From NCBI RefSeq assembly GCF_036226745.1, contig NZ_CP109013.1, forward strand, positions 1 through 64,000: a stretch of DNA of 64,000 nt, written 5' to 3'. The DNA is from Streptomyces sp. NBC_00683 (GTDB lineage: Bacteria; Actinomycetota; Actinomycetes; Streptomycetales; Streptomycetaceae). Of the stretch, positions 38,528 to 58,507 are shown in pieces. A model generated the notes under the pieces. The model was not told the origin of the DNA and made no database searches. It saw only the letters and a list, made by a program, of their open reading frames with translations. The translations under genes were made by a program, and so were the position numbers. How positions within the stretch are numbered: position 1 is the first letter of the stretch; each line of letters starts with the position of its first letter.

Positions 38528-38615
38528 TTCAGTCATTCATCGATCTATTGACATACATCGCTCAACGCTGGCAGGGTTCCGGCCGTCGGTCGACAGCGTC
38601 GTTACCGACCTGGGC
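38528..38615 (+). promoter_or_regulatory. 88-bp repeated promoter/operator, arsL copy
   Basis: Nearly identical, with the same length, to 49575-49662 upstream of the ATP-grasp/mtn operon. It includes an inverted repeat CGATCTAT-TGAC-ATACATCG (38541-38560, 7 of 8 arm positions pair) that overlaps a -35 TTGACA (38548-38553). CAGGGT (38572-38577) is a possible -10 at an 18-bp spacing. It lies 57 bp before the arsL start, with conserved leader included. Confidence 0.8.
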
Positions 38616-38672
38616 TCTGACCCGGCCCCATCTCGATCCGTCACGCTCCTTGATCACTCCCTGGGGGGAAGT

Positions 38673-39923
38673 GTGAGTAGTCCCCGTGTTCTGGTTGCCT
38701 CCGCGTTCGAAGCGGAGCTCCAGCCCTTGACGTCCGCGTGCGCGGCTGCCGCTCTGCAGCACCACGGCGCCGACGTCGTCGGCTGGGACGCGCACCTGCT
38801 TCCCGACGCCATTCCGGAAGGCCCCTTCGACCTCACGCTCGTCTCGGTCCAGCAGTTCGAGGGCCTCGAGCGTGGAATCGCCCTGGCCCGCAGGGTCTCG
38901 GAGGCGTACGGCACCACGGTCGTGACCTTCGGCCAGTACGCGCAGATGAACCACCGGGAATTCCTCGACGTCGCCGACGGCATCATCATGGAGGAGCCCG
39001 AGCTCATCAGCGAGGAGCTGGCCCAGCTCGCCGCCGGCACCATCGCGCTGGACGCGGTGCCCGCCCTGATGACCCGCACGGGCATGCGGCCCAAGCCCCC
39101 GCGTCGGCGCATCTCGGTCACCAAGCCCGCCCGGGACCTGTTCCCCTCCCTCGTGCACTACCCGGCGCACCACTCGCCGTTCGGCCTGATGGGCAACATC
39201 GAGACGTCCCGCGGCTGCCACCACAAGTGCACCTACTGCTCCGTGTACGGCGCCTACGACGGCGGGGTCGCCGCGTACGACGCCGACAGCGTCCTGGCCG
39301 ACGCCCTGCAGCTGGCAGAGGAGGGCGTCCGGCACTTCTGCTTCATCGACGCCGAGTTCTTCAACTCCCGCACCATCGGCATCGGTGTGGTCGAGCGGCT
39401 CGTCGAGGCCATCGGCCCCCTCACGTTCGAGTTCACCACCCGCGTCGACCACGTCCTCGACTACACCAAGGAACTGGAGAAGCTCGTCTCGCTCGGGCTG
39501 CGCCGCGTCACCTGCGCCCTCGAGTTCCCGTCCAACCGCATCCTGCGCATCTTCGACAAGCACATCGACGTCGACCACATGCGCGAGGCGGTCGACGAGG
39601 CCGAGCGGATCGGCTTCGAGCTGTACCCGACGTTCATCCCCTTCACCCCGTGGATTGAGTACGAGGAGCTCCTCGGCTTCGAGGACTGGCTGGTCGAGAC
39701 CGGCCTCGCCCGCGTCACCGACCCGACCGCCCTGCAGACCCGACTGCTGCTGTTCAAGGGCTCCCCCCTGCTCTCCTCGCCCTGGATGGAGGACATCGCC
39801 ACCGTCGACCGCGGCTTCTGGGTCGAGTGGACCCACCCCGACAAGCGCGTCGAGGAGCTCTGGCAGGAGCGCCGCACCGACGCCGAGGACGCCGGCAAGA
39901 TCCGCTGCTGCGTGAAGTGCTGA
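38673..39923 (+). CDS. arsL: ArsL-type radical SAM enzyme, As-C bond formation
   Basis: 416 residues from GTG 38673 (GGGGGGAAGT upstream). Residues 1-130 form a cobalamin-binding-like Rossmann domain without a DxHxxG motif. The radical SAM cluster motif is C182-x3-C186-x2-C189 in SRGCHHKCTYCSVYGAY, followed by the barrel with EFPSNRILRIFDKHID. The protein ends in RCCVKC (411-416). A C-terminal RCC-x-KC is what I know from ArsL, which moves the 3-amino-3-carboxypropyl group of SAM to As(III) to form hydroxyarsinothricin. The alternative, a B12 radical methylase, is less likely given the tail, the neighbouring ArsM and the ars genes. It is first in an operon of four genes with short gaps. Confidence 0.85.
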   Translation: MSSPRVLVASAFEAELQPLTSACAAAALQHHGADVVGWDAHLLPDAIPEGPFDLTLVSVQQFEGLERGIALARRVSEAYGTTVVTFGQYAQMNHREFLDVADGIIMEEPELISEELAQLAAGTIALDAVPALMTRTGMRPKPPRRRISVTKPARDLFPSLVHYPAHHSPFGLMGNIETSRGCHHKCTYCSVYGAYDGGVAAYDADSVLADALQLAEEGVRHFCFIDAEFFNSRTIGIGVVERLVEAIGPLTFEFTTRVDHVLDYTKELEKLVSLGLRRVTCALEFPSNRILRIFDKHIDVDHMREAVDEAERIGFELYPTFIPFTPWIEYEELLGFEDWLVETGLARVTDPTALQTRLLLFKGSPLLSSPWMEDIATVDRGFWVEWTHPDKRVEELWQERRTDAEDAGKIRCCVKC

Positions 39924-39953
39924 CCCACCCGCTCACAAGAAAAGGACACTGAC

Positions 39954-41213
39954 ATGGGTGGATCACCCCGCGTCGTCATCTCCACCGGCCAGGCACTCCC
40001 GGACATGGACTGGGCCGGCGAGCTCGCCGGCCTCACCGACTCGTGGCCGTACCTTGGCCCCACCTGGCTGCGGGCCACGGAGAAGGTACTCCCCGACGTC
40101 CAGCCCTGGCACACCCTCGCCCACCGCGCCCGCGGCGAGCTGGCCCTCCTTCCCGGCTACATCCTCACCACCCCGCCGGCCGTCGACCACGAGCCGCGCA
40201 CCTACCTCGGATGGCAGGCGCCCTCGGGCGAAGAGGTGTGCTGTGGCGCCGAGACCGACGCCGCGCGCAGTGCCGAGGTCGACGCGCTGGGAACCGAGCC
40301 CTTCTTCCCGACGCTCCTGCTCGGCTCCCCGCTGGGCTACCGCACCGAGGTCGCCTACAACTTCTGGACCCCCACCCTGATGGGGTCCATCATCGACAAG
40401 CTCGTGCCCGCCGCCTTCGAGGCCGGCATCCGCTGCATCGTGGCCCCCTGGATTCCCAGCCGCCGTGGCAACGACGCCCTCGTCGACGCGCTCGACGCCG
40501 CCGGCGCGTCCAGCACCTTCTGGGGCTACGAGGACTTCATGAGCCTCGACGCGCCGAACTGGGAAGGACACCTCGCCGCCCTGCCGCTGAAGAAGCGCCA
40601 GCGCATCAAGGGCGACGTCCGCCGCGCCGAAGCCGCCGGCGTGACGATCGAGCGCGTCGACGGTACCGACATCCGCCCCTACGTCGCCCGCATCGCCGAA
40701 CTCACCTGTCTCAACCGGGAGAAGAACGGCGCCGGCGAGGAGCCCGAGCACATCGTCGGTGTCCTCTCCGCGCTCATCGACGAGGGCGCGGACGTCCGCG
40801 CCTACCTCGGCTACAAGGACGGCGCTCTGGTCGCCACCTGCGTCACCATCCGAAAGAACCACCGCCTCTTCCCGAAGTGGGCCGGCTTCGACTACGCCGC
40901 GATCGGTGAGCGCAGCGGCATCTACTTCGCCCTCGTCCTGGACGCGCCCGTCCGCGACGCGTACGCCGAGGGCCTACGCACCGTCGAGTTCGGCGCCGGA
41001 GCCCACCAGGCGAAGGCTCTGCGCGGCTGCACCCCGCGCGAAGTCCGTACCTCGATGCTGCTCTCCGACCCGGCGCTGCGCCCGCAGGCGAGCGCCTGGC
41101 TCGACGCCTTCGGAAACAGTCGGCGCGTCGCGTTCGGCGCCGCGTCCCCCGCCCCGGCCCAGCCCGCGAACCTGCCCCTCCTGGGCGGCTCCGGCGACAG
41201 CTGCTGCGGCTGA
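39954..41213 (+). CDS. FemAB/BioF2-like GNAT acyltransferase of the arsenic operon
   Basis: 419 residues from ATG 39954 (AAGGAC upstream), 30 bp after arsL. The C-terminal half has the FemAB-like/GNAT pattern: LPLKKRQRIKGDVRRAEAAG near residue 211, then LGYKDGALVATCVTIRKN and GLRTVEFGAGAHQAKALRGC near 345. Family members add acyl or aminoacyl groups to amines, some from aminoacyl-tRNA. The protein ends GDSCCG, a vicinal Cys pair near the terminus as in ArsL and ArsM of the same operon. It could acylate the amino group of the arsenic product (protection or peptide formation). No such member is known to me in the characterised arsinothricin cluster. Confidence 0.7.
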   Translation: MGGSPRVVISTGQALPDMDWAGELAGLTDSWPYLGPTWLRATEKVLPDVQPWHTLAHRARGELALLPGYILTTPPAVDHEPRTYLGWQAPSGEEVCCGAETDAARSAEVDALGTEPFFPTLLLGSPLGYRTEVAYNFWTPTLMGSIIDKLVPAAFEAGIRCIVAPWIPSRRGNDALVDALDAAGASSTFWGYEDFMSLDAPNWEGHLAALPLKKRQRIKGDVRRAEAAGVTIERVDGTDIRPYVARIAELTCLNREKNGAGEEPEHIVGVLSALIDEGADVRAYLGYKDGALVATCVTIRKNHRLFPKWAGFDYAAIGERSGIYFALVLDAPVRDAYAEGLRTVEFGAGAHQAKALRGCTPREVRTSMLLSDPALRPQASAWLDAFGNSRRVAFGAASPAPAQPANLPLLGGSGDSCCG

Positions 41214-41250: not shown

Positions 41251-42357
41251 ATGATCACCTTCATCCCCCTGACCGGATTCCTCGGGGCGGGCAAGACCAC
41301 GACCATGACCGCCGCCGCGCTCGCGCTCCAGGAGCAGGGCCGCAAGGTCGCCGTCATCACCAACGACCAGGGCGTCGAACTGGTCGACACCAAGCTCGTA
41401 CGGAGCAAGCTCGACAGCGTCGCCGAGGTCACCGGCGGCTGTTTCTGCTGCAAGTTCGAGGACCTCGTCGAGGCCATCGTCGCGCTGGTCGCCTCCGACA
41501 GCGTCGACACCGTGATCGCCGAAGCCGTCGGCAGCTGCACGGACCTCCAGGCCACCGTCGTACGACCGCTGCGCCAGTACTACGGCGACGACATGGTCGT
41601 TGCCCCGCTGACCACCGTGGTCGACCCGCTGCGGCACCTGGCGTTCGCCCGCGCCGCCGAGCGGGGCGAGCCGGAGTCGGACCTGTCGTACCTCTTCCGT
41701 CAGCAGGTCACCGAGGCCGACGTCATCGCTGTGAACAAGCTGGACACCATCAATGCGGACCGGGCCGAGGAACTCCTCGCCTCGCTCCGCGCGAGCAACC
41801 CGAAGGCGACCGTCGTCGGATACTCCGCCACCACCGGCGCTCACCTGGAGAACCTGCTCGACGCGTGGCAGGCACCGGCGACGAACGGGGACGTCGTCCT
41901 CGACATCGACTACGACCGCTACGCGGCCGCCGAGGCCCAGCTCGCCTGGATGAACCAGGAGCTCGACCTCACCGCCGCCGGCGACGGTTTCGACGCGACG
42001 GCCTGGGCCCGCACCGTCCTTGAGGAGCTGTCCGCCTGGGCCGCGGAGCACGACGCTGTGATCGGCCACGCCAAGATCACCGTGGAGACGGCCGACGGGG
42101 ACTTCGCCAAGCTCAGCCTCACCGAGTCCGGCGCGCAGCCCACCCTCGACCGCGCCGCCGCCGCGCACGCGCCGACCGGCCGGGCCGTCGTCAACGCCCG
42201 GGTCGCCTGCGAGCCCGACGCCCTGGACGCGGCCGTCACCGAGGCCGTCAAGGCAGCCGACCTCGCCACCGCCGTCACCTCCTCGGCGACCACCCCGGTG
42301 TCGTTCAAGCCCTCCTACCCGCGCCCCGTGCACCGCCTCGCCCCCGCCGGCGCCTGA
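41251..42357 (+). CDS. CobW/COG0523-type P-loop GTPase
   Basis: 368 residues from ATG 41251 (AAGGA upstream). Walker A GFLGAGKT is at residues 9-16. The metal motif GGCFCC has C64-x-C66-C67, as in COG0523 metallochaperones (GCxCC). A VNKLD guanine-specificity motif is near residue 161. These GTPases deliver metals to client proteins. In this operon the client could be ArsL or ArsM and the cargo a metal or As(III), since the Cys triad would also bind a thiophilic arsenic. This is inference. The C-terminal region is long and lacks the CobW_C signature I would look for. Confidence 0.75.
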   Translation: MITFIPLTGFLGAGKTTTMTAAALALQEQGRKVAVITNDQGVELVDTKLVRSKLDSVAEVTGGCFCCKFEDLVEAIVALVASDSVDTVIAEAVGSCTDLQATVVRPLRQYYGDDMVVAPLTTVVDPLRHLAFARAAERGEPESDLSYLFRQQVTEADVIAVNKLDTINADRAEELLASLRASNPKATVVGYSATTGAHLENLLDAWQAPATNGDVVLDIDYDRYAAAEAQLAWMNQELDLTAAGDGFDATAWARTVLEELSAWAAEHDAVIGHAKITVETADGDFAKLSLTESGAQPTLDRAAAAHAPTGRAVVNARVACEPDALDAAVTEAVKAADLATAVTSSATTPVSFKPSYPRPVHRLAPAGA

Positions 42358-42376: not shown

Positions 42377-43165
42377 ATGAGCGACACCACCACCGCCGGC
42401 AGCCTGCAGGAAGAGGTCCGGGAGTACTACCGGGCCAAGGCCGCCGAAGCCGAGACGAGCGGCGCCTGCTGCTCGCCCGACCCGCAGACCTTCGGCCCCG
42501 CCGCGTACGACGAGATCGGCCCCGGCACCGCCCCGGACGCGGCCCTCCTCGCCAGCCTCGGCTGCGGCAACCCGAGCGCCGTCGCCGAACTGCGCGAGGG
42601 CGAGACGGTCCTGGACCTCGGCTCCGGCGGCGGCCTGGACGTCATCCTCAGCGCCCGGCGCGTCGGCCCCGACGGCCGCGTCTTCGGCCTGGACTTCCTG
42701 GAGGAGATGCTCGCCCTCGCCGCCCGCAACGTCGAGGACGCCGAGATCGACAACGTCGTCCTCCTCAAGGGCACGATCGAGTCCATCCCGCTGCCGGCCG
42801 ACACCGTCGACGTGATCATCTCCAACTGTGTGATCAACCTGTCGCTGAACAAGCCCGCAGTCTTCGCCGAGATGGCCCGCGTCCTGACCCCCGGTGGCCG
42901 CCTCGGCATCAGCGACGTCGTCGCCGAGGACCGGCTCAGCCCCGAGGAGCGAGCTGAGCGCGGCGGGCACAGCCAGTGCATCGCCGGCGCGCTGTCCGTC
43001 TCCGAGTACAAGGAACTCCTCGACGCGGTCGGCCTGAAGGACGCGGAGGTCGTCTTCACCCAGGAGGCGGCCGACGGCCTCCACGCCGCGATCATCCGTG
43101 CCCACAAGCCCGTCGACAGCATCGCCGGCGCACAGGAGTGCGCGCCCGGCGGCACCTGCTGCTGA
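42377..43165 (+). CDS. arsM: ArsM-type As(III) S-adenosylmethionine methyltransferase
   Basis: 262 residues from ATG 42377 (GAGAAGGA upstream), 19 bp after the GTPase gene. The SAM-binding motif is VLDLGSGGGLD near residue 75. ArsM hallmarks are present: SLGCGNP (C63), NCVINLS (C151) and HSQCIAGALS (C201), the three thiolates that hold arsenic, plus C31-C32. It ends GGTCC. ArsM can methylate inorganic As(III) or, in arsinothricin formation, methylate the hydroxyarsinothricin made by ArsL. The co-operonic ArsL favours the second role. A strong terminator follows 19 bp after the stop. Confidence 0.9.
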   Translation: MSDTTTAGSLQEEVREYYRAKAAEAETSGACCSPDPQTFGPAAYDEIGPGTAPDAALLASLGCGNPSAVAELREGETVLDLGSGGGLDVILSARRVGPDGRVFGLDFLEEMLALAARNVEDAEIDNVVLLKGTIESIPLPADTVDVIISNCVINLSLNKPAVFAEMARVLTPGGRLGISDVVAEDRLSPEERAERGGHSQCIAGALSVSEYKELLDAVGLKDAEVVFTQEAADGLHAAIIRAHKPVDSIAGAQECAPGGTCC

Positions 43166-43486: not shown

Positions 43487-43822
43487 ATGTCCGAAACGTC
43501 ACTCGACCGGGAGACCGTCGAGGAGTACGCCCGCTGGTTCCGAGCCCTGGCCGACCCCACGCGCATCCGCATCATGCGGTTCCTGAGCGGCCGGCCGGGG
43601 CCCGTGCCGGTGGGCGAGATCGTCGACCATCTTCGACTCAACCAGTCGACCGTCTCCCACCACCTGAAGATCCTTCACACCGTCCGCTTCCTGACCAGGC
43701 GCCGTGCCGGTGCCAGCATCCGGTACGCCATCAACCCCCGCTGCATCACCGAGTTCCCCAGCGCCGCCGACATCCTCATCGGCGCCCCCGTCCACTCCTG
43801 CCGGGAACCGGAATCCAGCTGA
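43487..43822 (+). CDS. arsR: ArsR-family transcriptional repressor
   Basis: 111 residues from ATG 43487 (AAGG 7 nt upstream). The winged-helix core is ALADPTRIRIMRFLSG, then LRLNQSTVSHHLKILHTVRF (recognition helix about residues 50-70). It lacks the CVCD metal motif of classical ArsR, but has Cys in INPRCITEFPSAAD and SCRE near the C-terminus, a layout shared with the repressor at 57159. Such C-terminal Cys could sense As(III) or an organoarsenical. It stands alone after the arsL operon terminator. Confidence 0.85.
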   Translation: MSETSLDRETVEEYARWFRALADPTRIRIMRFLSGRPGPVPVGEIVDHLRLNQSTVSHHLKILHTVRFLTRRRAGASIRYAINPRCITEFPSAADILIGAPVHSCREPESS

Positions 43823-44169: not shown

Positions 44170-45168
44170 TCAGGCTGTGACAGCGACGCTCGCGACGGCC
44201 TTGCTCCTGTCGGCAAGGGCGGCGAGGTATCGCTCCGCGTCGAGGGCGGCCTGGCAGCCGGAGCCTGCCGCGGTGATGGCCTGGCGGTACGTGTGGTCGA
44301 CGACGTCGCCGGCGGCGAAGACTCCCGGCAGGTTCGTGCGGGTGGAGGGCACCTCCACCTGGATGTAGCCCTCGTCGTCGAGGTCGATCTGGCCCGTGAA
44401 GAGTTCGGTGCGCGGGTCGTGGCCGATGGCGATGAAGAGGCCGGTGGCGTCGAGGTCGCGGGTCTTGCCGGTGAAGGTGTCGCGCAGGACGACGCCGGCC
44501 AGGATGCCGCTCTCGGACGTGATCTCCGCGATCTCGCTGTCGAAGGCGAAAGAGATCTTGTCGTCCGCGAAGGCCCGGCTCTGCATGACCTGGGAGGCGC
44601 GCAGGGTCGAGCGGCGGTGGACGACGGTGACCGAGCGGGCAAAGCGGGTGAGGAAGGTGGCTTCCTCCATGGCGGTGTCTCCGCCGCCGACCACGACGAT
44701 GTCGCGGTCGCGGAAGAAGAAGCCGTCGCAGGTCGCGCACCAGGAGACGCCGCGGCCCGAGAGCTCGTCCTCGTTGGGAAGGCCGAGCTTGCGGTAGCCG
44801 GAGCCGGTAGCGATGATCACGGCCTTGGCACGATCAACCGTTCCCTCGCTGTCGGTGACTTCCTTGATGTCTCCCGTCAGGTCGACGGAGATGACGTCGT
44901 CGTCGACCATCTCGGCGCCGAAGCGCTCGGCCTGGGTCCGCATGTTGTCCATGAGGTCGGGGCCGTCGACGCCGGTGGGGAAGCCGGGGAAGTTTTCGAC
45001 CTCGGTCGTCGTGGTCAGGGAGCCGCCGACGAAGATCGAGCTGCCGAAGAGCAGGGGCTTGAGCTGGGCGCGGGCGGTGTACAGGGCGGCGGTGTATCCG
45101 GCGGGGCCGGATCCTATGACGATGACCTCACGGACGTCGTCACCGGTGGTCGCGGTCGGCTCGGCCAC
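44170..45168 (-). CDS. trxB: Thioredoxin reductase
   Basis: 332 residues from GTG 45168, chosen because AGGAGG lies ten bases before it. An upstream GTG at 45177 overlaps the arsC stop. FAD site [16 protein letters not shown] near residue 19, redox pair CATC in [13 protein letters not shown] near 147, NADPH motif [12 protein letters not shown], and C-terminal [24 protein letters not shown] (split) are all typical. It reduces thioredoxin with NADPH. Being co-transcribed with a thioredoxin-coupled ArsC, it probably supplies reducing power for arsenate reduction. No thioredoxin gene is visible in the window. Confidence 0.93.
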
Positions 45169-45173
45169 GGGGC

Positions 45174-45593
45174 TCACGCCTCCTGCCGCGCGTCGATCCC
45201 GGCGACGAGGCCCTCGATGAGGGCCTTGATCTCGTCGCGGATCGGGCGGACGGCCTCGACGCCCTGGCCGGCCGGGTCCTCCAGGGCCCAGTCGAGGTAC
45301 TTCTTGCCGGGGAAGACCGGGCAGGCGTCGCCGCATCCCATGGTGATGACGTAGTCGGACGCCTGGACCGCCTCGGTGGTGAGGACCTGCGGCTTCTGGG
45401 CGGAGATGTCGATGCCGACCTCGGCCATCGCCTCGACGGCTGCCGGGTTGACCCGGTCGCCCGGGACCGAGCCGGCGGAACGGACCTCGATGCGGTCGCC
45501 GGCCAGGTGGCTCAGGAATCCGGCGGCCATCTGGGAGCGGCCGGCGTTGTGGACGCAGACGAAGAGCACGGAGGCGAGCGGTGCGGTGGTCAT
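45174..45593 (-). CDS. arsC: Thioredoxin-coupled arsenate reductase
   Basis: 139 residues. The low-molecular-weight phosphatase P-loop is CVHNAGRSQ (CX5R) near residue 13. A resolving Cys pair in MGCGDACP (about 85-91) matches the Cys relay of Trx-dependent ArsC. DPAG near 108 holds the acid Asp. It reduces arsenate to arsenite. Its stop overlaps the first possible start of trxB by four bases, so the two are translationally linked. It is divergent from an arsR with GTATCAGC direct repeats in between. A second copy lies at 48330. Confidence 0.95.
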
Positions 45594-45664: not shown

Positions 45665-45979
45665 ATGATGACGTCAGTCGATAGTGACCTGATCCGGGTT
45701 CTGGGTGATCCCCTGCGCCTCCAGATCGTGGCCCTGCTCGCCCGCGAGACGCTCTGTACCTCCCACCTCGTGGAGGAGACCGGCGCGAAGCAGACCAACC
45801 TCTCCAACCACCTGAGAGTGCTGCGCGAGGCGGGAGTCGTGGAGACCGAGCCCTGCGGCCGGTTCACCTACTACCGGCTCAAGCCGGACGTCATCGAGCA
45901 GCTCGCCGGGCAGTTCGCCGCACTCGCGCAGACCGCGCGCTTGACCGCCGAGGCGAACTTCAAGCGCTCTTGCCCCTGA
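45665..45979 (+). CDS. arsR: ArsR-family repressor
   Basis: 104 residues (ATG 45665; second ATG 45668). Winged helix: LGDPLRLQIVALLARETLCT then GAKQTNLSNHLRVLREAGVV. Instead of CVCD there is LCTSHL, with another Cys in ETEPCGRFTYYRL. The same pattern is in the paralogue at 48832, with about three quarters of residues shared. It opens an operon with the aquaporin and ArsO genes, 45 bp downstream. It probably controls those and the divergent arsC-trxB. Confidence 0.9.
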   Translation: MMTSVDSDLIRVLGDPLRLQIVALLARETLCTSHLVEETGAKQTNLSNHLRVLREAGVVETEPCGRFTYYRLKPDVIEQLAGQFAALAQTARLTAEANFKRSCP

Positions 45980-46024
45980 CCCCTCCCCCTTTTCTTGCTT
46001 CGCCTGTCCGAGGAGATCCAACCC

Positions 46025-46795
46025 GTGACCGCCACCGAGCCCGCTGCGAGCGACGCCATAGCCACCGACACGTCGCCGCAGCCCGGGCCCGGCGCGACCC
46101 CGCCCCGCACCCCGCTCGTCGCACGTGCGGCCGCCGAACTCGTCGGCACCGCTGCCCTCGTGGCGATCGTCGTCGGCTCCGGCATCCAGGTCACGCAGCT
46201 CACCGACGACGTGGCGCTGCAGCTCCTCGCCAACTCCACCGCCACCGTCTTCGGCCTCGGCGTCCTCATCGCGCTCCTCGGCCCGGTCTCCGGCGCCCAC
46301 TTCAACCCGGCCGTCACCCTGGCCGAGTGGTGGACCGCCCGCCGCGGGGGTGGTGGCGTGAACGCCCGCGAGCTCGCGGTGTACGTCCCCGCCCAGATCG
46401 TCGGCGCGGTTCTCGGCGCGATCCTGGCTGACGCCATGTTCGGCGAGCCGCTGGTGAAGTGGTCCACGCACGACCGCTCGGCGGAAAACCTCCTCCTCGG
46501 CGAGGTCGTGGCGACCGCCGGCCTCATCCTGCTGATCCTCGGCCTGGCCCGTACCGACCGCCTGCGTTTCGCGCCCGTCGCCGTCGCCTCGTACATCGGC
46601 GCCGCCTACTGGTTCACCTCGTCGACCTCGTTCGCGAACCCGGCGGTGACCATCGGCCGGGCGTTCACCGACACCTTCGCCGGCATCGCCCCGGCCTCCG
46701 TCCCGGCGTTCATCGGCATGCAGCTGATCGGCACGGCCGTGGGCCTGGCGCTGGTCGCGGTCATCTTCATGCGCGGCAGGACGACCGGCGAATGA
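46025..46795 (+). CDS. aqpS: AqpS-like aquaglyceroporin
   Basis: 256 residues from GTG 46025 (GAGGAG upstream), chosen over a TTG-type extension. Six membrane helices and two half-helices carry the NPA boxes GAHFNPAVTLAEW (about residue 96) and SFANPAVTIGRAF (about 204), the second with the Arg of the selectivity filter. The first 35 residues are an unusual Pro/Thr-rich N-terminal tail. MIP channels such as rhizobial AqpS let As(III) made by ArsC leave the cell. The window has no ArsB or Acr3, so this may be the arsenite exit, or in this island an entry for As(III) used by ArsL. Confidence 0.88.
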   Translation: MTATEPAASDAIATDTSPQPGPGATPPRTPLVARAAAELVGTAALVAIVVGSGIQVTQLTDDVALQLLANSTATVFGLGVLIALLGPVSGAHFNPAVTLAEWWTARRGGGGVNARELAVYVPAQIVGAVLGAILADAMFGEPLVKWSTHDRSAENLLLGEVVATAGLILLILGLARTDRLRFAPVAVASYIGAAYWFTSSTSFANPAVTIGRAFTDTFAGIAPASVPAFIGMQLIGTAVGLALVAVIFMRGRTTGE

Positions 46796-48825: not shown

Positions 48826-48831
48826 CAGGCC

Positions 48832-49140
48832 ATGCTGACGTCGGTGAACGCGGAACTGCTCAGGGCCCTGGCGGACCCTCTGCGGCTTCGCATCGTGTGC
48901 CTGCTTGCCCGTGAGTCGCTGTGTACGACTCATCTCGTCGAGGAGACGGGCGCGCGACAGACGAACCTGTCGAACCATCTCCGGGTTCTCCGGGAAGCGG
49001 GTGTCGTGGAGACCGAGCCCTGCGGGCGTTTCACCTATTACCGGCTGCGCCCCGAGGTGCTGGCCGATCTGTCCACGTTCTTCGGTGATCTGGCCGACGG
49101 GACGCACGAAGCCCCTCCGGCCCGGCGGCCTTGCGGTTAA
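48832..49140 (+). CDS. arsR: ArsR-family repressor
   Basis: 102 residues from ATG 48832. A close paralogue of the protein at 45665: LADPLRLRIVCLLARESLCT, GARQTNLSNHLRVLREAGVV, ETEPCGRFTYYRL. It uses the LCT..H Cys in place of CVCD. Divergent from the second arsC. Located between the two biosynthetic operons. It is one of six ArsR proteins in 15 kb. Confidence 0.9.
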   Translation: MLTSVNAELLRALADPLRLRIVCLLARESLCTTHLVEETGARQTNLSNHLRVLREAGVVETEPCGRFTYYRLRPEVLADLSTFFGDLADGTHEAPPARRPCG

Positions 49141-51025: not shown

Positions 51026-52051
51026 GTGAGCAAGCCCTCCGACCAGCCGTCACTGCGCTGGGACAACAACGCGATCGTCACCCTCGACCAGCGCGCGCTG
51101 CCCCACGAGAGGCGGCTCCTGCGCCTGGACACCGTGGACGACGTCATCACCGCCATCACAACACTCGCGGTACGGGGCGCCCCCTCCATCGGTCTCGCGG
51201 GCGCCCTGGGCGTCGCGCTCTCGGCGTACGCCCACTGCCCACCGGGCATCACCGGCGACGGGCAGGAGGCCGTGCGCGCCGACGCACAGCGGCTCGCCGC
51301 CGCCCGCCCGACGGCCGTCAACCTGGCCTGGGCCGTCGACCGGGCTCTCGCAAAGCTCGCCGACGGCCCGGACGCGGTCCTGGCCGAAGCCACCGCCATG
51401 ATCGACGAGGACCGGGCCGTCAACCGGCAGATGGTCGTTCACGCGGTCCAGGCCGTACTGGACCGTTGCCCGCAGGAGTCCCTGAGGCTCCTGACCCACT
51501 GCAACACCGGCCGGCTCGCGACCGCCGCCGTGGGCACCGCGCTCGGTACGATCCTCGCCCTCGCCGACGCCGGAAGGGTCACCGAGGTCCTCGTCGACGA
51601 GACCCGACCGCTCCTGCAAGGCGCCCGGCTGACGGCCTGGGAACTGGCAGAAGCCGGTGTGCCGCACCGCGTGTGCGTCGACAGTGCGGCCGCCGCGGCC
51701 ATGAGCCAGGGGCTCGTCGACTGCGTCCTCGTCGGAGCCGACCGCATCACCGCGCGCGGGGATGTGGCCAACAAGATCGGTACCTACGCACTGGCGATCG
51801 CCGCCGCCCACCACGGCATCCCGTTCATCGTCGTCGCCCCCGAATCCTCCTGGGACAGGTCCCTCGCCGACGGCCGGGACGTCGTCATCGAGGAACGCGC
51901 CGCCGACGAGGTGACCTCCTACGGCGGGATCCGCACCACCCCGCCCGGTACACGCGCGTACAACCCCGCCTTCGACGTCACCCCCGCCTCCCTGATCACC
52001 GTCATCGTCTCCGAGTACGGTGTCCACCACGCATCCGAGGTGAGCGCATGA
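51026..52051 (+). CDS. mtnA: S-methyl-5-thioribose-1-phosphate isomerase
   Basis: 341 residues from GTG 51026 (AAAGGAG upstream). MtnA signatures: RGAPSIGLAGALG, RPTAVNLAWA, THCNTGRLATA, VDETRPLLQGARLTAWEL and GADRITARGDVANKIGTYAL (split). It converts methylthioribose-1-phosphate to methylthioribulose-1-phosphate, step two of MTA salvage. Its stop overlaps the mtnB start by four bases. Confidence 0.95.
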   Translation: MSKPSDQPSLRWDNNAIVTLDQRALPHERRLLRLDTVDDVITAITTLAVRGAPSIGLAGALGVALSAYAHCPPGITGDGQEAVRADAQRLAAARPTAVNLAWAVDRALAKLADGPDAVLAEATAMIDEDRAVNRQMVVHAVQAVLDRCPQESLRLLTHCNTGRLATAAVGTALGTILALADAGRVTEVLVDETRPLLQGARLTAWELAEAGVPHRVCVDSAAAAAMSQGLVDCVLVGADRITARGDVANKIGTYALAIAAAHHGIPFIVVAPESSWDRSLADGRDVVIEERAADEVTSYGGIRTTPPGTRAYNPAFDVTPASLITVIVSEYGVHHASEVSA

Positions 52052-52740
52052 GTTACGCGCGGTCCACCGCAGCCGGCAAGCAGACCGCCCAGCAGCTGGC
52101 CGACGTCTCCCGCACCCTGTACGAGCGCGGCTGGATGCCGGGCACGGCCGGCAACATCTCCATTCGGCTGCCCGACGATCCCGGCCGGGCACTGATCACG
52201 GCGAGCGGGCGGGACAAGGGCGAGCTGACCGCCCGGGACGTGGTGGAGGTCGACGCCCGCACCGGCGAGGCATCCCATCCCGGCCAGGCCCGCCCCTCGG
52301 CGGAGACCTCCATCCACGCGGCGGTCTACCGCGCCACCGGCGCCCGCGCCGTCATCCACGTCCACTCCCCGTACGCCACCGTCGTCGCCCACCGCGCCGC
52401 TGCCGTGGACGCTGTCTCCTCGGTACGAGTGGATCGCTTCGAGCTGCTCAAGGGCCTGGGACTGAAGGACCCGGCCTTCACGGACCTGCCGGTGTTCCCC
52501 AACTGGCCCCAGGTCGACCGGATCGCCGACGACGTAGCCGCCCACCTCACGGCGGACCGGGAAGGCCCGCCCGGGCTCCTCCTGGCCGATCACGGCATCA
52601 CCGCCTGGGGCGACTCGCTGGGCCAGGCGAAGAACCGGCTCGAATGCCTCGAGTCGCTCTGCCAACTGCTCGTGCTCTCCCACGCCGAGCTGCATGTCTC
52701 CCGTGCCGCGCAGGCACCCGACCACAGGACCGCGCCATGA
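52048..52740 (+). CDS. mtnB: Methylthioribulose-1-phosphate dehydratase
   Basis: 230 residues from ATG 52048 (ATGA overlap with mtnA). Class II aldolase fold: RGWMPGTAGNISIRL near residue 28, zinc ligands in VIHVHSPYA near 106 and LLADHGITAWG near 178. The acidic SAETSIHAAVY precedes the zinc site. It dehydrates methylthioribulose-1-phosphate to a diketone phosphate. It overlaps mtnD by four bases. Confidence 0.93.
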   Translation: MSYARSTAAGKQTAQQLADVSRTLYERGWMPGTAGNISIRLPDDPGRALITASGRDKGELTARDVVEVDARTGEASHPGQARPSAETSIHAAVYRATGARAVIHVHSPYATVVAHRAAAVDAVSSVRVDRFELLKGLGLKDPAFTDLPVFPNWPQVDRIADDVAAHLTADREGPPGLLLADHGITAWGDSLGQAKNRLECLESLCQLLVLSHAELHVSRAAQAPDHRTAP

Positions 52741-53312
52741 CACTGCTGCAGATCATGCCGGACGACGCACCGGACACCGTGCTGCTCCGCACCCGCGACG
52801 AGGAAGCCATCGCGCAGGCCCTGCGCGAACGGTCGGTCTCCTTCACCCGCTGGCCGCTACGCGCAGAGGTGACGCCGCGGACATCGTCCGAGGAACTGCT
52901 CGACGCCTACCGGGCCGAGGTCGACGAGCTGTGCGCCGACCAAGGGCTGCGCCTCGTCGATGTCGCCCGGCTGCACCCCGAGGAGGGAGCGGAGTGGCAG
53001 GAGCGCGCGGCCAAGGCACGGTCGACCTTCCTCGACGAGCACCGGCATGCCGAGGACGAAGTCCGGTTCTTCGCCCAGGGCACCGGCTGCTTCTACCTGC
53101 ACCTGGACGACCGCGTGTACGCCGTGGTGTGCGAGGCCGGTGACCTGCTGTCGGTTCCGGCCGGTACCCGGCACTGGTTCGACATGGGACCCGTACCGGA
53201 CTTCTGCGCCATCCGGTTCTTCGAGAAGGAGGACGGCTGGGTGGGCGACTTCACTCAGGAGTCCATCGCCGAAGGCTTCCCCCGCCTCGACGCGCTCCTG
53301 CGGGAAGGCTGA
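52737..53312 (+). CDS. mtnD: Acireductone dioxygenase
   Basis: 191 residues from ATG 52737 (overlap ATGA with mtnB). Cupin metal ligands HRHAEDEVRFF (HxH...E) near residue 102 and GTRHWFDMG near 142 are those of acireductone dioxygenase. With Fe(II) it makes the methionine precursor KMTB. With Ni(II) it makes an off-pathway product. It is unusual only in standing before mtnC in the operon. Confidence 0.94.
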   Translation: MTLLQIMPDDAPDTVLLRTRDEEAIAQALRERSVSFTRWPLRAEVTPRTSSEELLDAYRAEVDELCADQGLRLVDVARLHPEEGAEWQERAAKARSTFLDEHRHAEDEVRFFAQGTGCFYLHLDDRVYAVVCEAGDLLSVPAGTRHWFDMGPVPDFCAIRFFEKEDGWVGDFTQESIAEGFPRLDALLREG

Positions 53313-54094
53313 TGCCGGGCAGCCGACAGGCCCAAGCCCCCGAGAACGGGCTGCGGGCCGTCGTCCTCGACATCGAGGGAACCACCGGCTCCCTCAGCCA
53401 CGTACGTGACGTCCTCTTCCCCTACGCGCGTGAGCGGTTCGCTCCCTGGCTCGCGGCTCACCGCGACACCGCGCCCTGGAAGCAGATCCTCGACGCGGTC
53501 ACCACCCACACCGGGACGGCCCACGACGAGGCAAGTGCTCTGGCACTCCTGGAACAGTGGGCCGACGCCGATGTGAAGGCGGCGCCGCTGAAGACGCTGC
53601 AAGGACTGATCTGGTCCGGCGGCTACGCGGCGGGCGAGTTGTACGGTCACGTGTACCCGGACGTGCCGCCCGCACTGGAGCACTGGAAGACGCAGGGCAC
53701 AGGCCGCTTCATCTACTCGTCCGGCTCCGTGGCCGCCCAGCAGGACTGGTTCGGCCACACCGCCCACGGGGACCTGCGCCCGCTGCTCGACGGCTACTTC
53801 GATCTGACGACGGCCGGCCCCAAGGCGGACGCCGACTCCTACCGTGCGATCGCGGCGGACCTGGGGCACGCACCCGCCGACCTGCTGTTCGTCAGCGACG
53901 TCGGTGCCGAGCTCGACGCCGCGGCCGAAGCCGGCTGGCAGACGGTGGTCGTACGCCGCCCCGGCGACGAACGCGCGACCGTGCCAGGTCATGAGGCCGT
54001 CGCCTCCCTTGCCCCACTCGTTTCCCGACCCGGCCCGGGCAGACCGACGGTGCCGGTCGACACGCACCCGCAGGAGGACCCAAGCGATGAGTGA
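53312..54094 (+). CDS. mtnC: Enolase-phosphatase E1
   Basis: 260 residues from ATG 53312 (one-base overlap TGATG with mtnD). HAD fold: nucleophile in VVLDIEGTTGSLS near residue 20, IYSSGSVAAQQDWF (motif II) near 134, KADADSY (motif III Lys) near 171, and LFVSDVGAELDAA near 194. It enolises and dephosphorylates diketomethylthiopentyl-1-phosphate. It replaces the MtnW/MtnX pair. The Pro-rich C-terminus overlaps mtnP by eight bases. Confidence 0.93.
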   Translation: MPGSRQAQAPENGLRAVVLDIEGTTGSLSHVRDVLFPYARERFAPWLAAHRDTAPWKQILDAVTTHTGTAHDEASALALLEQWADADVKAAPLKTLQGLIWSGGYAAGELYGHVYPDVPPALEHWKTQGTGRFIYSSGSVAAQQDWFGHTAHGDLRPLLDGYFDLTTAGPKADADSYRAIAADLGHAPADLLFVSDVGAELDAAAEAGWQTVVVRRPGDERATVPGHEAVASLAPLVSRPGPGRPTVPVDTHPQEDPSDE

Positions 54095-54908
54095 TCCGTC
54101 CGACACGGTGCCGAAGGCCGACATCGCGGTCATCGGCGGCAGCGGCTTCTACGAACTCCTGGAGTCGGTACGGCGCGTCGAGGTCACCACCCCGTACGGC
54201 GCGCCCTCCGACGCGGTATCCGTGGGAACCGTCGGCGGCCGCGACGTGGCCTTCCTGCCACGGCACGGTGGCCGCCACGAGCTTCCCCCGCACCGCATCA
54301 ACTACCGCGCCAACATGTGGGCGCTGCGCTCACTGGGGGTACGGCAGATCCTCGCCCCCTGCGCCGTCGGTTCGCTGCGCCGCTCCCTCGGCCCCGGCAG
54401 CGTGGTCCTTCCCGACCAGCTCGTCGACCGGACCACGGGCCGTGCCCAGACGTACTACGACCACGGCGCCACCCACGTCTCCTTCGCCGACCCGTACTGC
54501 GCCGCGGGGCGATCGGCCGTGCTCAAGGCCGCGGGCGAGGCCGGAGCCGACGTTCACGACGGCGGCGTGATGGTGGTCGTCGAGGGGCCCCGCTTCTCCA
54601 CCCGGGCGGAGTCCCAGTGGTACGCGTCGGCCGGCTGGTCGCTGATCAACATGACCGGACACCCGGAAGCCGTCCTCGCGCGCGAACTCGCCCTCTGCTA
54701 CACCTCCATCGCCCTCGTCACCGACTACGACGCCGGCGTGGAGCGAGGGGAGGGCGTCTCCCAGGACGAGGTCTTCCGGGTCTTCGGCGCGAACGTGGAG
54801 CGCCTGAAGGACCTGGTCCTGCAGACGGTCGCCGTCCTGGACCGCGAGAGGCGTTGCGGTTGTGCAGCGGCGCTCAACGGCATGGATCTGCCCTTCGAGC
54901 TTCCCTGA
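54087..54908 (+). CDS. mtnP: 5'-methylthioadenosine phosphorylase
   Basis: 273 residues from ATG 54087 (GGAGG 9 nt upstream). Purine phosphorylase family signatures: IGGSGFYELLE near residue 15, LPRHGGRHELPPHRINYRAN near 57, EGPRFSTRAESQWY near 166, and INMTGHPEAVLARELALCY near 190. It phosphorolyses MTA to adenine and methylthioribose-1-phosphate, the first step of the pathway and the source of MtnA's substrate. Last gene of the operon. MTA is the expected by-product of ArsL. Confidence 0.94.
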   Translation: MSDPSDTVPKADIAVIGGSGFYELLESVRRVEVTTPYGAPSDAVSVGTVGGRDVAFLPRHGGRHELPPHRINYRANMWALRSLGVRQILAPCAVGSLRRSLGPGSVVLPDQLVDRTTGRAQTYYDHGATHVSFADPYCAAGRSAVLKAAGEAGADVHDGGVMVVVEGPRFSTRAESQWYASAGWSLINMTGHPEAVLARELALCYTSIALVTDYDAGVERGEGVSQDEVFRVFGANVERLKDLVLQTVAVLDRERRCGCAAALNGMDLPFELP

Positions 54909-54987: not shown

Positions 54988-55500
54988 TCATTCCACGACC
55001 GGGCTGCGGCGCTCCACCAGCAGGACGTCGCGCCAGACGCCGTGGTGGCGAGCCACGCGTTCCCGTCGGCCGAGGACACGGAACCCGGTGGACTCGTGCA
55101 GGGCGAGGCTCGCACTGTTCTCGGGAAAGATGCCCGCCTGGATCGTCCAGATCCCCGCCTTCTCGGTGGAGACGATCAACGCCTCCAGGAGCGTGCGCCC
55201 CACGCCGGTTCCGCGCGCCGTGGGACTGACGTACACGGAGTGCTCGACGACCCCCGCGTACGCGGGCCGGGTCGAGACACGCGACACCGCAGTCCAGCCG
55301 GCCACCCGCCCCCGCTGACCCAGCGCCACGAGCCGGTGCGCCGCGAGCTTGGAGGTGTCGAACGCGCTCCACGGCGGCGCGGCGGTCTCGAACGTGGCGT
55401 TGCCCTCGTCGATGCCCTGCTGGTAGATCGCCATGACCGCCGACGCGTGGTCGTCGGTCATCGGAGCCAGGGTGACTCCCGGGCGCGGGGGTGTGGTCAT
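54988..55500 (-). CDS. arsN1: ArsN1-type arsinothricin N-acetyltransferase
   Basis: 170 residues. GNAT fold with MAIYQQGIDEGNATFETAAP near residue 23, an ArsN1/phosphinothricin-acetyltransferase-like N-terminus. The core is VEHSVYVSPTARGTGVGRTL near 86, the acetyl-CoA loop, and the C-terminus RRERVARHHGVWRDVLLVER. ArsN1 acetylates arsinothricin and confers resistance, which fits self-protection in a producer. Related PAT enzymes acetylate phosphinothricin. It is transcribed toward the biosynthetic operon, with arsP upstream on the same strand. A truncated second copy lies at 58017. Confidence 0.9.
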   Translation of the reverse strand: MTTPPRPGVTLAPMTDDHASAVMAIYQQGIDEGNATFETAAPPWSAFDTSKLAAHRLVALGQRGRVAGWTAVSRVSTRPAYAGVVEHSVYVSPTARGTGVGRTLLEALIVSTEKAGIWTIQAGIFPENSASLALHESTGFRVLGRRERVARHHGVWRDVLLVERRSPVVE

Positions 55501-55632: not shown

Positions 55633-56760
55633 TCAGAGCAGGGGCAGCGCGACGAGGCCGATACCCACGCTGCCGAGGAGGCCCACGCCGAGGTAGAAGG
55701 CGAAGACCTTCGTCTTGACGACGCTCTTGACGGCCACCATCGCCGGGATCGTCGTGATGGCACCGCCGAGGAGGAAGGTGACGCCCGCGGCGGCGACCAT
55801 GCCCTGGTCCATGAGGCCCTCGACGACCGGGATGGCACCGACGCCGTTGAGGTACAGCGGGACGCTTATGAGTCCGGCGACCAGAACGGAGAGGACGCCG
55901 TCCGTGCCGAGGATGCCCGAGACGACGTCGGTGGGTACGTAACGGACGATCAGGGCCTCGAGGACGATGGCCAGGAGCAGCCACTTGCCCAGGATCAGCG
56001 AGTCGCTGACGATCTCCTTCAGGATCTCGCCGGCCCGGAGGTTCTTGATGTCGCGCCGCACGAGTACGCGCCATGGGGTGCCGTCGTCGTCAGCGTCGTT
56101 CCGCGCGGCGGTGGAGCAGCCACCGGCCTCAGGAGCGGGCTCGGCTTCTTGGGCGGCACCGCCGCACCCGCCGGCAGCACTGCCACCGCTGCCACTTCCG
56201 CCTCCGACGGCCACGGTCTCGGGCACGGTCGCCTTCGCCGCCGAGCACGCGGTCTCCGGAACGGTCACCGCCTCCTGCGAGCAGCTCTTCGCCGGCGCCT
56301 TCTTCTCCGTGGAGGCGATCAGCGGGTCCGCGAACCGTCCGCGCCGTTCGAGCGCGAGAACGATGAGGCCCGCGCCGAAGCTCAGCACCAGGGCGCCGAT
56401 GAGACGGGCGGTGGCGACGGGGAATCCGAGCTGGGCGGCGGAGAGCGCGTAGATCTCCGGGTCCATGGAGGGGGAGGCGATCCAGAACGCCATCACGGCC
56501 GAGAGCGGGACGCCGGCTATCAGGAAGCGGCGGATCAGGGGGATCACGGTGAAGGAGCAGAAGGGGCTGAACGCTCCGATGGCCGTGACGATGGCGATGC
56601 CGAGGACGCCCTTGCGCCCGTGGGCGAAGCTGCGGCGAGCGACCACGTCGATCGACAGACGCTGTACGGCGATTCCCAGGACGATGGCGACCAGGAACCA
56701 CGGGAGATAGTGCAGCACCTCGAGCAGGATGAACAGGCCAAGGGCCCGCAATTCGTCCAC
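55633..56760 (-). CDS. arsP: ArsP-like permease (trivalent organoarsenical efflux)
   Basis: 375 residues from GTG 56760 (GAGAGG upstream); longer in-frame starts have no ribosome site. About eight membrane helices in two halves. The first half has AFSPFCSFTVIPLIRRFL near residue 60. The second has LISVPLYLNGVGAIPVVEGL. A cytosolic loop at about residues 176-240 carries five Cys in SCSQEAV, ACSAAK, GGCGG and GGCS among Gly/Ser/Glu runs. ArsP permeases export trivalent methyl- and aromatic arsenicals. Here it could export the reduced arsenic product. An operator pair lies 100 bp upstream. Confidence 0.85.
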   Translation of the reverse strand: MDELRALGLFILLEVLHYLPWFLVAIVLGIAVQRLSIDVVARRSFAHGRKGVLGIAIVTAIGAFSPFCSFTVIPLIRRFLIAGVPLSAVMAFWIASPSMDPEIYALSAAQLGFPVATARLIGALVLSFGAGLIVLALERRGRFADPLIASTEKKAPAKSCSQEAVTVPETACSAAKATVPETVAVGGGSGSGGSAAGGCGGAAQEAEPAPEAGGCSTAARNDADDDGTPWRVLVRRDIKNLRAGEILKEIVSDSLILGKWLLLAIVLEALIVRYVPTDVVSGILGTDGVLSVLVAGLISVPLYLNGVGAIPVVEGLMDQGMVAAAGVTFLLGGAITTIPAMVAVKSVVKTKVFAFYLGVGLLGSVGIGLVALPLL

Positions 56761-57154: not shown

Positions 57155-57158
57155 GATC

Positions 57159-57488
57159 ATGAGCGGTACGATGAATGCCCAGCTGATCGACCGAAGCACG
57201 GCCGAGTCCTACGCAACCTGGTTCAAGGCCCTCTCCGATCCCACCCGCGTGCAGATCCTCAATCTCCTCGCGCTGGCGACCGGGCCGATGAGTGTCGGAG
57301 AGATCGTGGACCGGATGGGTGTCGGACAGTCGACGGTGTCCCACCACCTGAAGCTGCTCGCGGACGTGCGGTTCGTCCTGCGCGAGCGCCAGGGGACCTC
57401 CATGCTCTACTCCATCAACGTCGCCTGCGTGGCTTGCTTCCCCAGTGCTGCCGACGCCGTCATGGGCCGCCCCGCGGCCTCGGCGTGA
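57159..57488 (+). CDS. arsR: ArsR-family repressor
   Basis: 109 residues (ATG 57159; internal ATG 57171). Winged helix: FKALSDPTRVQILNLLALA then VGQSTVSHHLKLLADVRFV. Like the protein at 43487 it lacks CVCD and has a C-terminal INVACVACFPSAADAVMG with two Cys. These two form a subgroup within the island. Its stop overlaps the start of the next arsR by four bases (GTGA). Divergent from arsP, with operators between. Confidence 0.87.
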   Translation: MSGTMNAQLIDRSTAESYATWFKALSDPTRVQILNLLALATGPMSVGEIVDRMGVGQSTVSHHLKLLADVRFVLRERQGTSMLYSINVACVACFPSAADAVMGRPAASA

Positions 57489-57895
57489 GGACCGGCCCCT
57501 TGGTCAAGTCGACCCCGCCCATATCCGGTGCGACCGCTACTGCCTGCTGCCCACCCATAGTGACCGCCGCGCTCTCCGAAGGGGACGCCGAGATCATGGC
57601 GGCGATGTTCAAGGCGCTGGCCGACCCCGTCCGGCTCCGCCTCCTGTCCAGAGTGGCCTCACACCCCAACGGTGAGGCATGCGTCTGCGACATAGCCGAC
57701 GTGGGCGTCTCCCAGCCCACGGTCAGCCACCACCTGAAGAAGCTCCGGGAAGCGGGCCTGCTCACCTCCGAGCGGCGCGGCACCTGGGTGTACTACCGCC
57801 CCGCGCCCGGCGTCCTGGCCTCGCTGGGCGCGTTCCTCGCCGACACCGAGAAGGCCGACAAGGAAGAGATCTCCCTGGCGGCCCAGGTCTCCTGA
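57485..57895 (+). CDS. arsR: ArsR-family repressor with CVCD metal site
   Basis: 136 residues from GTG 57485. As(III) motif EACVCDI near residue 60, recognition helix VSQPTVSHHLKKLREAGLLT, and an N-terminal ATACCPPIV Cys pair, a layout seen in some actinobacterial three-Cys ArsR proteins. Co-transcribed with the preceding arsR of a different type, an unusual tandem. A terminator follows. Confidence 0.9.
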   Translation: MRTGPLVKSTPPISGATATACCPPIVTAALSEGDAEIMAAMFKALADPVRLRLLSRVASHPNGEACVCDIADVGVSQPTVSHHLKKLREAGLLTSERRGTWVYYRPAPGVLASLGAFLADTEKADKEEISLAAQVS

Positions 57896-57899
57896 CGTT

Positions 57900-57933
57900 C
57901 GGCGCCGCCACCCCTGAACCCGGGGCGGCGCCG
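57900..57933 (+). terminator. Terminator after the arsR pair
   Basis: A 10-bp stem CGGCGCCGCC/GGCGGCGCCG with a 14-nt loop, followed by TTTCT. Confidence 0.8.
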
Positions 57934-58016
57934 TTTCTGCCGTGGCGTGTCTGCCTGCACGCATCCGTGCGTCCGTGCTCGACTGCGTCAGGCGATGTGC
58001 GTGCTGCGACGCTCCA

Positions 58017-58507
58017 CACTGAATGGTCCAGATCCCCGCCGCCTCAGTGGAGTCAATGAGCGCCTTCAACAGCACCGAGGCGACGCCACGTCCTCGTGCG
58101 TCAGGGTGCACGTACACGGAGTGCTCGACGACTCCGGCGTACGCGCACCGGTCGGAGACCTTCGCGGCCGCCACCCACCCGAGCACCCGGTCGGCCTCGT
58201 CGAGCGCGGCGAATCGGTGCTCGAGCAACCTGGCCGCGTCAAACTGCTCCCAGGTCGGGGCGACGGTCTCGAAGGTGGCGTTGCCCTCATCAATGCCGGC
58301 CTGATATATCGCGACGACCTCGTCGGCGTGCCGCGTCCGGATCAGCTGGGGACGCCGACACGGAGGGGGCGAGGAAGTCGCTGACGGGGCCGTGCGCGAC
58401 TTTGTGTCGTCGCTGCTGCCACAGCCGGTCAGCGCCAGCGCAAGCCCCACAGCACTGCACAGCGCCACCATGTCCCGTCGACGTCGTGTCTGTCGAGGCG
58501 TCACCAT
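58017..58507 (-). pseudogene. Lipoprotein signal joined to a truncated arsN1
   Basis: From ATG 58507 (GGGGGA upstream) the frame encodes a lipoprotein signal (ALCSAVGLALALTGCGSSDD) and a Ser/Thr/Pro linker. It then passes at about 58352 into ArsN1 sequence: AIYQAGIDEGNATFETVAPT, VEHSVYVHPDARGRGVASVL and GIWTIQCG, where homology ends at 58017. The first 20 and last 40 residues of ArsN1 are missing, including the acetyl-CoA end, so it should be inactive as an acetyltransferase. The continuing frame runs antisense into an arsR. It appears to be a recombination product. Confidence 0.75.

Follow-up and report, generated by a model that had tools for sequence, protein, structure and literature searches.

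Few natural products of bacteria carry a carbon-arsenic bond. For one of them, arsinothricin, the ArsL and ArsM proteins of Burkholderia are sufficient for production in E. coli, and ArsL has been proposed to transfer a 3-amino-3-carboxypropyl group by cleavage of S-adenosylmethionine (SAM) at C-gamma (PMC8552651). For bisenarsan (bsn) clusters, PMC12159101 proposes that BsnM and BsnN, homologues of EPSP synthase and phosphoglycerate mutase, convert arsenate to arsonopyruvate. Here we describe an arsenic island of Streptomyces sp. NBC_00683, contained in the first 64,000 bases (the window) of one contig of 8,519,659 bases, in which arsL is accompanied by genes for a Fem-type transferase, a CobW-type GTPase, an ATP-grasp ligase and a methylthioadenosine (MTA) salvage operon (mtn). 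On balance we think it probable, if only modestly so, that the island makes an arsinothricin-type amino acid, likely couples this to ordinary amino acids in a peptide and likely recycles the sulfur by-product that ArsL releases; the product is predicted. A preliminary description of the locus had proposed that the strain makes arsinothricin or a derivative, which is likewise a prediction.

Genes were called with a codon-usage script, and each of the 27 genes called in 34344-60282 was scanned against Pfam or NCBIfam models, with the following outcome.

34344..35078, minus strand: pstB-like ABC ATPase (PF00005; 10 of 22 loci have an 84-94% identical gene upstream of arsL)
35066..36898, minus strand: fused PstC-PstA permease (TIGR02138 292.8 and TIGR00974 287.8 bits, both above cut-off)
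36901..37866, minus strand: PstS-type phosphate/arsenate binding protein (TIGR02136 166 bits, below the cut-off of 206.6; PBP_like_2 above cut-off)
38673..39923, plus strand: arsL, radical SAM protein, predicted 3-amino-3-carboxypropyl transfer to As(III) (NF040542; tree; RCCVKC end)
39954..41213, plus strand: FemAB-CC, Fem-type transferase with C-terminal Cys-Cys (PF13480 and PF04339 above cut-off; AlphaFold predicted local distance difference test score, pLDDT, 92.3; nearest folds FemX, FemA and Sbb17)
41251..42357, plus strand: CobW/COG0523-type GTPase with GGCFCCK (PF02492, 104.8 bits; motif in all 21 loci having the gene)
42377..43165, plus strand: arsM-like arsenic methyltransferase with Cys-Cys end (arsenic methyltransferases head the solved-structure matches, E 7e-30; below curated cut-offs)
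43487..43822, plus strand: arsR 1 (PF01022)
44170..45177, minus strand: thioredoxin reductase (TIGR01292 378.2, cut-off 343.45)
45174..45593, minus strand: arsC 1 (PF01451; TIGR02689 92.7, below the cut-off of 157.6)
45665..45979, plus strand: arsR 2 (PF01022)
45995..46795, plus strand: MIP (aquaporin family) channel (PF00230, 79.2 bits)
46792..47850, plus strand: arsO flavin monooxygenase (NF040505 550.5, cut-off 425)
47951..48319, plus strand: arsR 3 (PF01022)
48330..48743, minus strand: arsC 2 (PF01451; TIGR02689 83.9, below cut-off)
48814..49140, plus strand: arsR 4 (PF01022)
49725..50987, plus strand: L-amino acid ligase-type ATP-grasp ligase, which heads the mtn operon
51026..52051, plus strand: mtnA, methylthioribose-1-phosphate isomerase (TIGR00512 383.7, cut-off 279)
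52048..52740, plus strand: mtnB, methylthioribulose-1-phosphate dehydratase (TIGR03328 169.5, cut-off 137.05)
52737..53312, plus strand: mtnD, acireductone dioxygenase (PF03079 102.2, cut-off 27; sole match in the genome)
53312..54094, plus strand: mtnC, enolase-phosphatase (TIGR01691 246.5, cut-off 128.1; sole match above cut-off in the genome)
54087..54908, plus strand: mtnP, methylthioadenosine phosphorylase (TIGR01694 310.1, cut-off 274.85)
54988..55500, minus strand: ArsN1-like N-acetyltransferase, candidate self-resistance gene (NF040503, below cut-off)
55633..56760, minus strand: ArsP family permease (PF03773)
57159..57488, plus strand: arsR 5 (PF01022)
57560..57895, plus strand: arsR 6 (PF01022)
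58987..60282, plus strand: MFS transporter (PF07690, 96.4 bits), 1091 bases from arsR 6, of uncertain island membership

The protein encoded at 38673 is ArsL. It scores 488.9 bits against NF040542 (cut-off 450), the next family being the CUAEP/CCAEP-tail radical SAM proteins at 202.7, and the CxxxCxxC (CX3CX2C) motif and RCCVKC end noticed in the preliminary description are indeed present, at residues 182-189 and the C-terminus. The phylogeny suggested there places it among ArsL proteins and not away from them: in a tree of 38 proteins all 28 ArsL rows (the window, 22 actinobacterial and 5 proteobacterial) form one clade (support 95/82), within which the window protein belongs to a 23-row actinobacterial clade (100/100). 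Ten other Streptomyces radical SAM proteins, whose long branches call for caution, fall outside the ArsL clade, and a grouping of the window protein with such proteins, apart from ArsL, is ruled out by the tree. Two members of the clade, L026 and L027, are contigs given in PMC8552651 as arsQML carriers. Transfer of a 3-amino-3-carboxypropyl group to As(III) is the predicted activity. The loci come from one scan of genome contigs, which gave 29, and those counted as ArsL loci are 22 actinobacterial and 6 proteobacterial; L030 (22% identity over 145 residues) is excluded from every count. The ArsL-like gene of Candidatus Spongiihabitans (L029, G028:C42:2750-3772) is broken by one in-frame TGA and was kept out of the tree, its C-terminal end not being scored. 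Near arsL in Vogesella (L028:3502-4536) and Actibacterium (L026:11307-12353) there are proteins of 344 and 348 amino acids, 34% identical over 241 residues, with no Pfam family at E 0.001.

The neighbourhood of arsL is conserved to different degrees. FemAB-CC follows arsL in all 22 actinobacterial loci and CobW is found in 21. An arsM lies at +3.6 to +3.8 kb in 19, 17 have an ATP-grasp gene no more than 12 kb away, and in 11 mtn genes are 20 kb or less from arsL (one contig, L020, ends after cobW and was scored as being without arsM, ATP-grasp and mtn genes). The nine nearest arsL loci, every one from Streptomyces, are 97-99% identical. The acyltransferase, GTPase, ATP-grasp ligase and MTA recycling had been presented as an expansion of the arsL/arsM core; the genes are all there, but these frequencies rule out the first two as strain-specific additions and make them part of the actinobacterial core. 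The suggested search for the same gene set in other Streptomyces covered 392 genomes, the strain's own among them. ArsL is above cut-off in 10, and all 10 have FemAB-CC at 86% identity or more and an ATP-grasp orthologue at 70% or more, the latter found in none of the other genomes (the next match is 60%). CobW was counted in 362 genomes and reaches at least 86% in nine, all of them ArsL carriers, with 3 others at 53-54%; the tenth carrier (G398, G010 in the locus survey), with a 92% identical cobW, is taken as outside this sample. Finally, mtnC is present in 9 of the 10 carriers vs. 59 of the 382 others, and in 8 of the 10 it is by coordinates within 20 kb of arsL.

Two of these enzymes may point to a peptide. 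The AlphaFold model of FemAB-CC is a tandem GNAT fold nearest to FemX and FemA, structural ranks 1-22 being of Fem, Sbb17 and MprF/PGS types (it was built from an alignment of the window protein with 55 homologues, picked across the identity range from a list of the best 120 of 153). By sequence, a comparison of FemAB-CC with solved structures gave only two chance-level rows. The ATP-grasp protein matches L-amino acid ligases in fold and in its ATP-grasp domain (alignment of the window protein, 39 of the best 120 of 1292 homologues, and the Vogesella protein). PADLOC gave no match for either protein. Natural fusions of an ArsR domain with an ATP-grasp ligase were seen in P0261, P0264, P0267 and P0268.

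FemAB-CC is not restricted to ArsL carriers. Nine ArsL-less genomes of the 392 have homologues at 46-51%, and a further 17 have 25-32% matches only. The clusters in those nine (L150-L158) share a run of aminotransferase-like, ArsP-like permease, ArsR, FemAB-CC and regulator-like genes, together with EPSP-synthase-like, phosphoglycerate-mutase-like and CTP-synthase-C-terminal-like genes. In L152, the one run through models, TIGR01356 (411.2) and TIGR01307 (409.5) are above cut-off and NF004836 (255.4) is just below its 260. At the edge of all nine stretches stand Pst genes that share 71-90% identity with the window's, and a CobW search of the nine stretches, 20 kb each, was negative at E 1e-5. 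Each of these nine bsnMN-type FemAB-CC proteins carries Cys-Cys at its two ends, and together they make up a separate clade in a quick tree (here, as in the quick trees of MtnC and MtnD, inner forks are weak). The common substrate type would be an arsenical amino acid, arsinothricin-like where ArsL is present and arsonoalanine, from arsonopyruvate and the aminotransferase, in the bsnMN-type clusters.

For the CobW-type GTPase we can only guess at a service to ArsL by delivery of As(III) or a metal; the open-licence PMC papers listed on COG0523 metallochaperones and arsenic gave nothing on arsenic delivery. The motif GGCFCC[KR] occurs in all 21 ArsL loci holding the gene. Two of its ArsL-less relatives adjoin a large gene, of glycoside hydrolase family 116 type in the one of the two scanned, and a third (53%) belongs to another arsenic island, where radical SAM/SPASM-like and ArsM-like proteins are encoded upstream of it. 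This island, in G096 (C1:3646074-3668368; L166:14075-20000 and L163:1-18369), has ArsR, CobW-type GTPase, ArsC, SBF-family (Acr3-like) and ArsN1-like genes along with an OPT oligopeptide transporter, a TldD/PmbA pair and an FAD monooxygenase. Its radical SAM/SPASM peptide-maturase-like protein reaches at best 127.7 bits, below cut-offs, and its ArsM-like protein ends in PPETPCC; it is a candidate ribosomal-peptide organoarsenical cluster.

The mtn operon can be connected with the ArsL reaction, as 3-amino-3-carboxypropyl transfers give MTA (PMC6302742). MtnA, MtnB, MtnC and MtnP exceed NCBIfam cut-offs and MtnD the Pfam ARD cut-off, and the six genes ATP-grasp-mtnA-B-D-C-P are spaced by 38, -4, -4, -1 and -8 bases. 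A second mtnP (65%) and mtnA (50%) exist elsewhere in the genome; since the rest of it has no further mtnC above cut-off and no further mtnD, the complete MTA route seems confined to the island, mtnB elsewhere and the last transaminase not having been searched. In Amycolatopsis pretoriensis the order is mtnA-C-B-D (35-51%), with an acyl-CoA-dehydrogenase-like gene in front, and the set sits between arsC and a gene for a 398-amino-acid protein, the counterparts of which are adjacent in the sister species A. iheyensis. In the quick trees its MtnC and MtnD fall with genome sets of A. anabasis and Lentzea, apart from the Streptomyces islands. In Lentzea, a gene for an MtnA-MtnB fusion and mtnD lie next to arsP. 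Because of these separate sets, the mtn-arsL pairing arose at least twice and probably three times. The text of PMC8552651 has a term count of 0 for MTA and of 0 for words starting with “methionine,” and the open-licence PMC literature yielded nothing joining arsinothricin with methylthioadenosine. The preliminary description likewise drew no link between the MTA genes and ArsL chemistry, or between the ligase-like enzymes and a peptide.

Put together, arsenate would enter by Pst and be reduced by ArsC, and ArsL, perhaps served with As(III) or a metal by the GTPase, would transfer 3-amino-3-carboxypropyl from SAM to As(III) and release MTA, to be recycled by the mtn operon. The Cys-Cys ends may hold trivalent arsenic while FemAB-CC and the ATP-grasp ligase build the arsenical amino acid into a peptide, with a putative aminoacyl-tRNA donor and in an order that we can only suppose. 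Any arsinothricin-type amino acid left free would be exported, or neutralized by the ArsN1-like enzyme. Of these steps, the peptide product is the boldest and the least proven. In the open-licence PMC literature nothing joins arsinothricin with a peptide and a ligase, and, as far as its listing goes, no paper ties an arsenic product to Fem/aminoacyl-tRNA peptide formation. A wider proposal, tentative and rather doubtful in our own estimate, is that arsenical peptides are general in actinobacteria. A dithiol-armed Fem-type transferase would be common to the ArsL and BsnMN chemistries, its Cys-Cys tail holding a trivalent arsenical amino acid to which an amino acid from tRNA is added, with CobW supplying the radical SAM enzyme with As(III) and the salvage operon removing MTA.

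A number of observations weigh against the peptide reading. The shared FemAB-CC fold gives no proof of the donor, and use of aminoacyl-tRNA is a prediction; the protein is also above the cut-off for Acetyltransf_6, and in Foldseek's own ranking acetyl-CoA-type tandem GNATs are mixed in from rank 11. Its Lentzea relative has no Cys-Cys end and that of S. zaomyceticus ends in CDSACGS. The ATP-grasp protein gives LAL_C2 24.3 bits, below the cut-off of 29.4 (the Vogesella homologue has 38.6), and its family is broad, with a member at E 1e-40 in 165 of the 392 genomes and a second one (41%) in the strain's own. The CobW motif is no arsenic marker because GCxCC is nearly universal among the listed homologues (119 of the best 120 of 1470). 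Moreover, associations among Streptomyces are inflated by kinship, for which they are uncorrected. Some of this would suit another scheme: the island makes free arsinothricin, which the Fem-type protein turns into a protected intermediate by acetyl- or acyl-CoA-dependent N-acylation, and the ATP-grasp enzyme has its role elsewhere; N-acetylation is the known neutralization of arsinothricin (PMC6465285). However, we judge this unlikely, given the exclusively Fem, Sbb17 and MprF/PGS types at the head of the structural ranks, an ArsN1-like acetyltransferase already in the island, and an ATP-grasp orthologue confined to ArsL carriers.

The salvage part of the peptide reading has its own difficulties. 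In half of the actinobacterial loci (11 of 22) mtn genes are beyond 20 kb of arsL or absent, and they are not essential because the close relatives S. gardneri and S. filamentosus carry the island without them. A. pretoriensis and Lentzea have another mtn set elsewhere, so the copies beside arsL are not their sole ones, and the Lentzea MtnD has no placement in the tree. The operon might then be a passenger, a methionine-salvage set wandering between clusters and unrelated to ArsL, and a relative of mtnABDCP (59-75%; L109 in G034) does stand apart from ars genes, with a SAM synthetase gene and a methyltransferase as neighbours. Yet the tight operon with the ATP-grasp gene, the distinct sets that two other genera have next to arsL and the lack of any other mtnC or mtnD in the strain's genome make this decidedly unlikely. 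S. gardneri (G332; L100) and G349 (L105) also have an isolated mtnC, 74-76% identical to that of the island, and no match to an ars gene up to 14 kb away.

Among the remaining genes, the two ArsC, six ArsR (PF01022, E 1.3e-13 to 9.4e-16 each), acyltransferase, GTPase, ATP-grasp and MTA-recycling genes of the preliminary description were all recovered by family models about where it had put them. ArsO, the aquaporin-type channel, the thioredoxin reductase, the MFS transporter and the pst genes with fused PstC-PstA were absent from its list. Its ArsM does have the arsenic-binding Cys pattern, as listed for the 98% identical L002 orthologue (63, 151, 201), plus the Cys-Cys end, but the label is weaker. 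The protein has 245.7 bits vs. a cut-off of 263 for the arsenite methyltransferase model PRK11873, and 112.7 and 60.1 vs. 500 and 240 for the arsinothricin-type models NF040538 and NF040539. Similarly, the gene called ArsN1 is ArsN1-like, at 125.6 vs. the curated cut-off of 170 (NF040503, ArsN1 family A). These shortfalls, and the absence of any GntP family (ArsQ-type permease) match among the 27 called genes, also count against the main reading. The ArsP assignment holds by Pfam (ArsP_1, 137.7 bits), below the NCBIfam arsenic efflux cut-off. A purely detoxifying role, in which arsenic would be turned into low-toxicity organoarsenicals and exported with no antibiotic function, fits the surrounding resistance genes (six ArsR, two ArsC, ArsO, ArsP family permease) and is quite improbable, since it has no need for two peptide-ligase-like enzymes or an MTA-recycling operon and the ArsN1-like gene suits self-protection.

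Directly upstream of the island is the pst phosphate-type transporter, with PstC and PstA in one 610-amino-acid protein; its relatives flank both arsL islands (84-96%, ten Streptomyces loci) and bsnMN islands. In L012 a PHO4 (PitA-type) transporter gene (14565-15647) lies between arsM and arsR, with similar-looking genes at the same place in L014, L016, L017 and L019; the window has none there, but has the pst genes upstream. As a possible ArsR operator, TCAA-N-TTGA occurs 3 times in the window vs. 0.99 expected, which is at chance level (9 of 100 shuffles reach 3), and the site upstream of arsL (38128) has no counterpart at that place in 22 related loci. No motif recurred among the inverted repeats of seven intergenic stretches, as judged by eye and with no formal test.

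If the peptide reading is true, arsinothricin-type chemistry in Streptomyces and other actinobacteria is built into a peptide, with possible entry by peptide uptake, and natural arsenic-containing peptides would be a new antibiotic class. The uncharacterized Cys-Cys-ended transferase, also of bsnMN-type clusters, would gain a testable function and FemAB-CC would be a handle for mining further arsenical peptides, while a by-product-recycling operon would be tied to a rare type of SAM cleavage.

There is a precedent outside arsenic chemistry. Phosphinothricin tripeptide (bialaphos) is a glutamate-like glutamine synthetase inhibitor masked within a peptide, and an N-acetyltransferase provides self-protection; the peptide is assembled by a nonribosomal peptide synthetase and enters cells by peptide uptake. 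PMC6465285 names the gene clusters and N-acetyltransferases of this pathway. In the window, arsenic would take the place of phosphorus, and predicted enzymes of the Fem and L-amino acid ligase types that of the synthetase. Sbb17/Sba18 (PDB 9wqw-9wqy) are aminoacyl-tRNA-dependent peptide synthases that act on another substrate, streptothrisamine, and have 14% identity to FemAB-CC. The bisenarsan and bsnMN-type Streptomyces clusters are also actinobacterial arsenic islands, and the nine opened share ArsR, Pst and a homologous FemAB-CC; however, they have no ArsL and, in the 20-kb stretches of the nine, no CobW match, and their carbon-arsenic bond is formed via arsenoenolpyruvate without SAM (PMC12159101). 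With arsQML of Burkholderia gladioli GSRB05 (PMC8552651), the island shares an ArsL with CX3CX2C, an ArsM, ars regulation and the predicted SAM-derived transfer to As(III). It differs in lacking a GntP-type ArsQ match, in a shorter ArsM (262 vs. 378 amino acids) below the arsinothricin ArsM cut-offs, and in adding FemAB-CC, CobW, ATP-grasp and mtn genes; its ArsL shares 36-38% identity with that of the proteobacterial loci compared, which end in RCCLKC instead of RCCVKC. Our verdict is that this is the same carbon-arsenic step as in the arsinothricin kind, with different partners.

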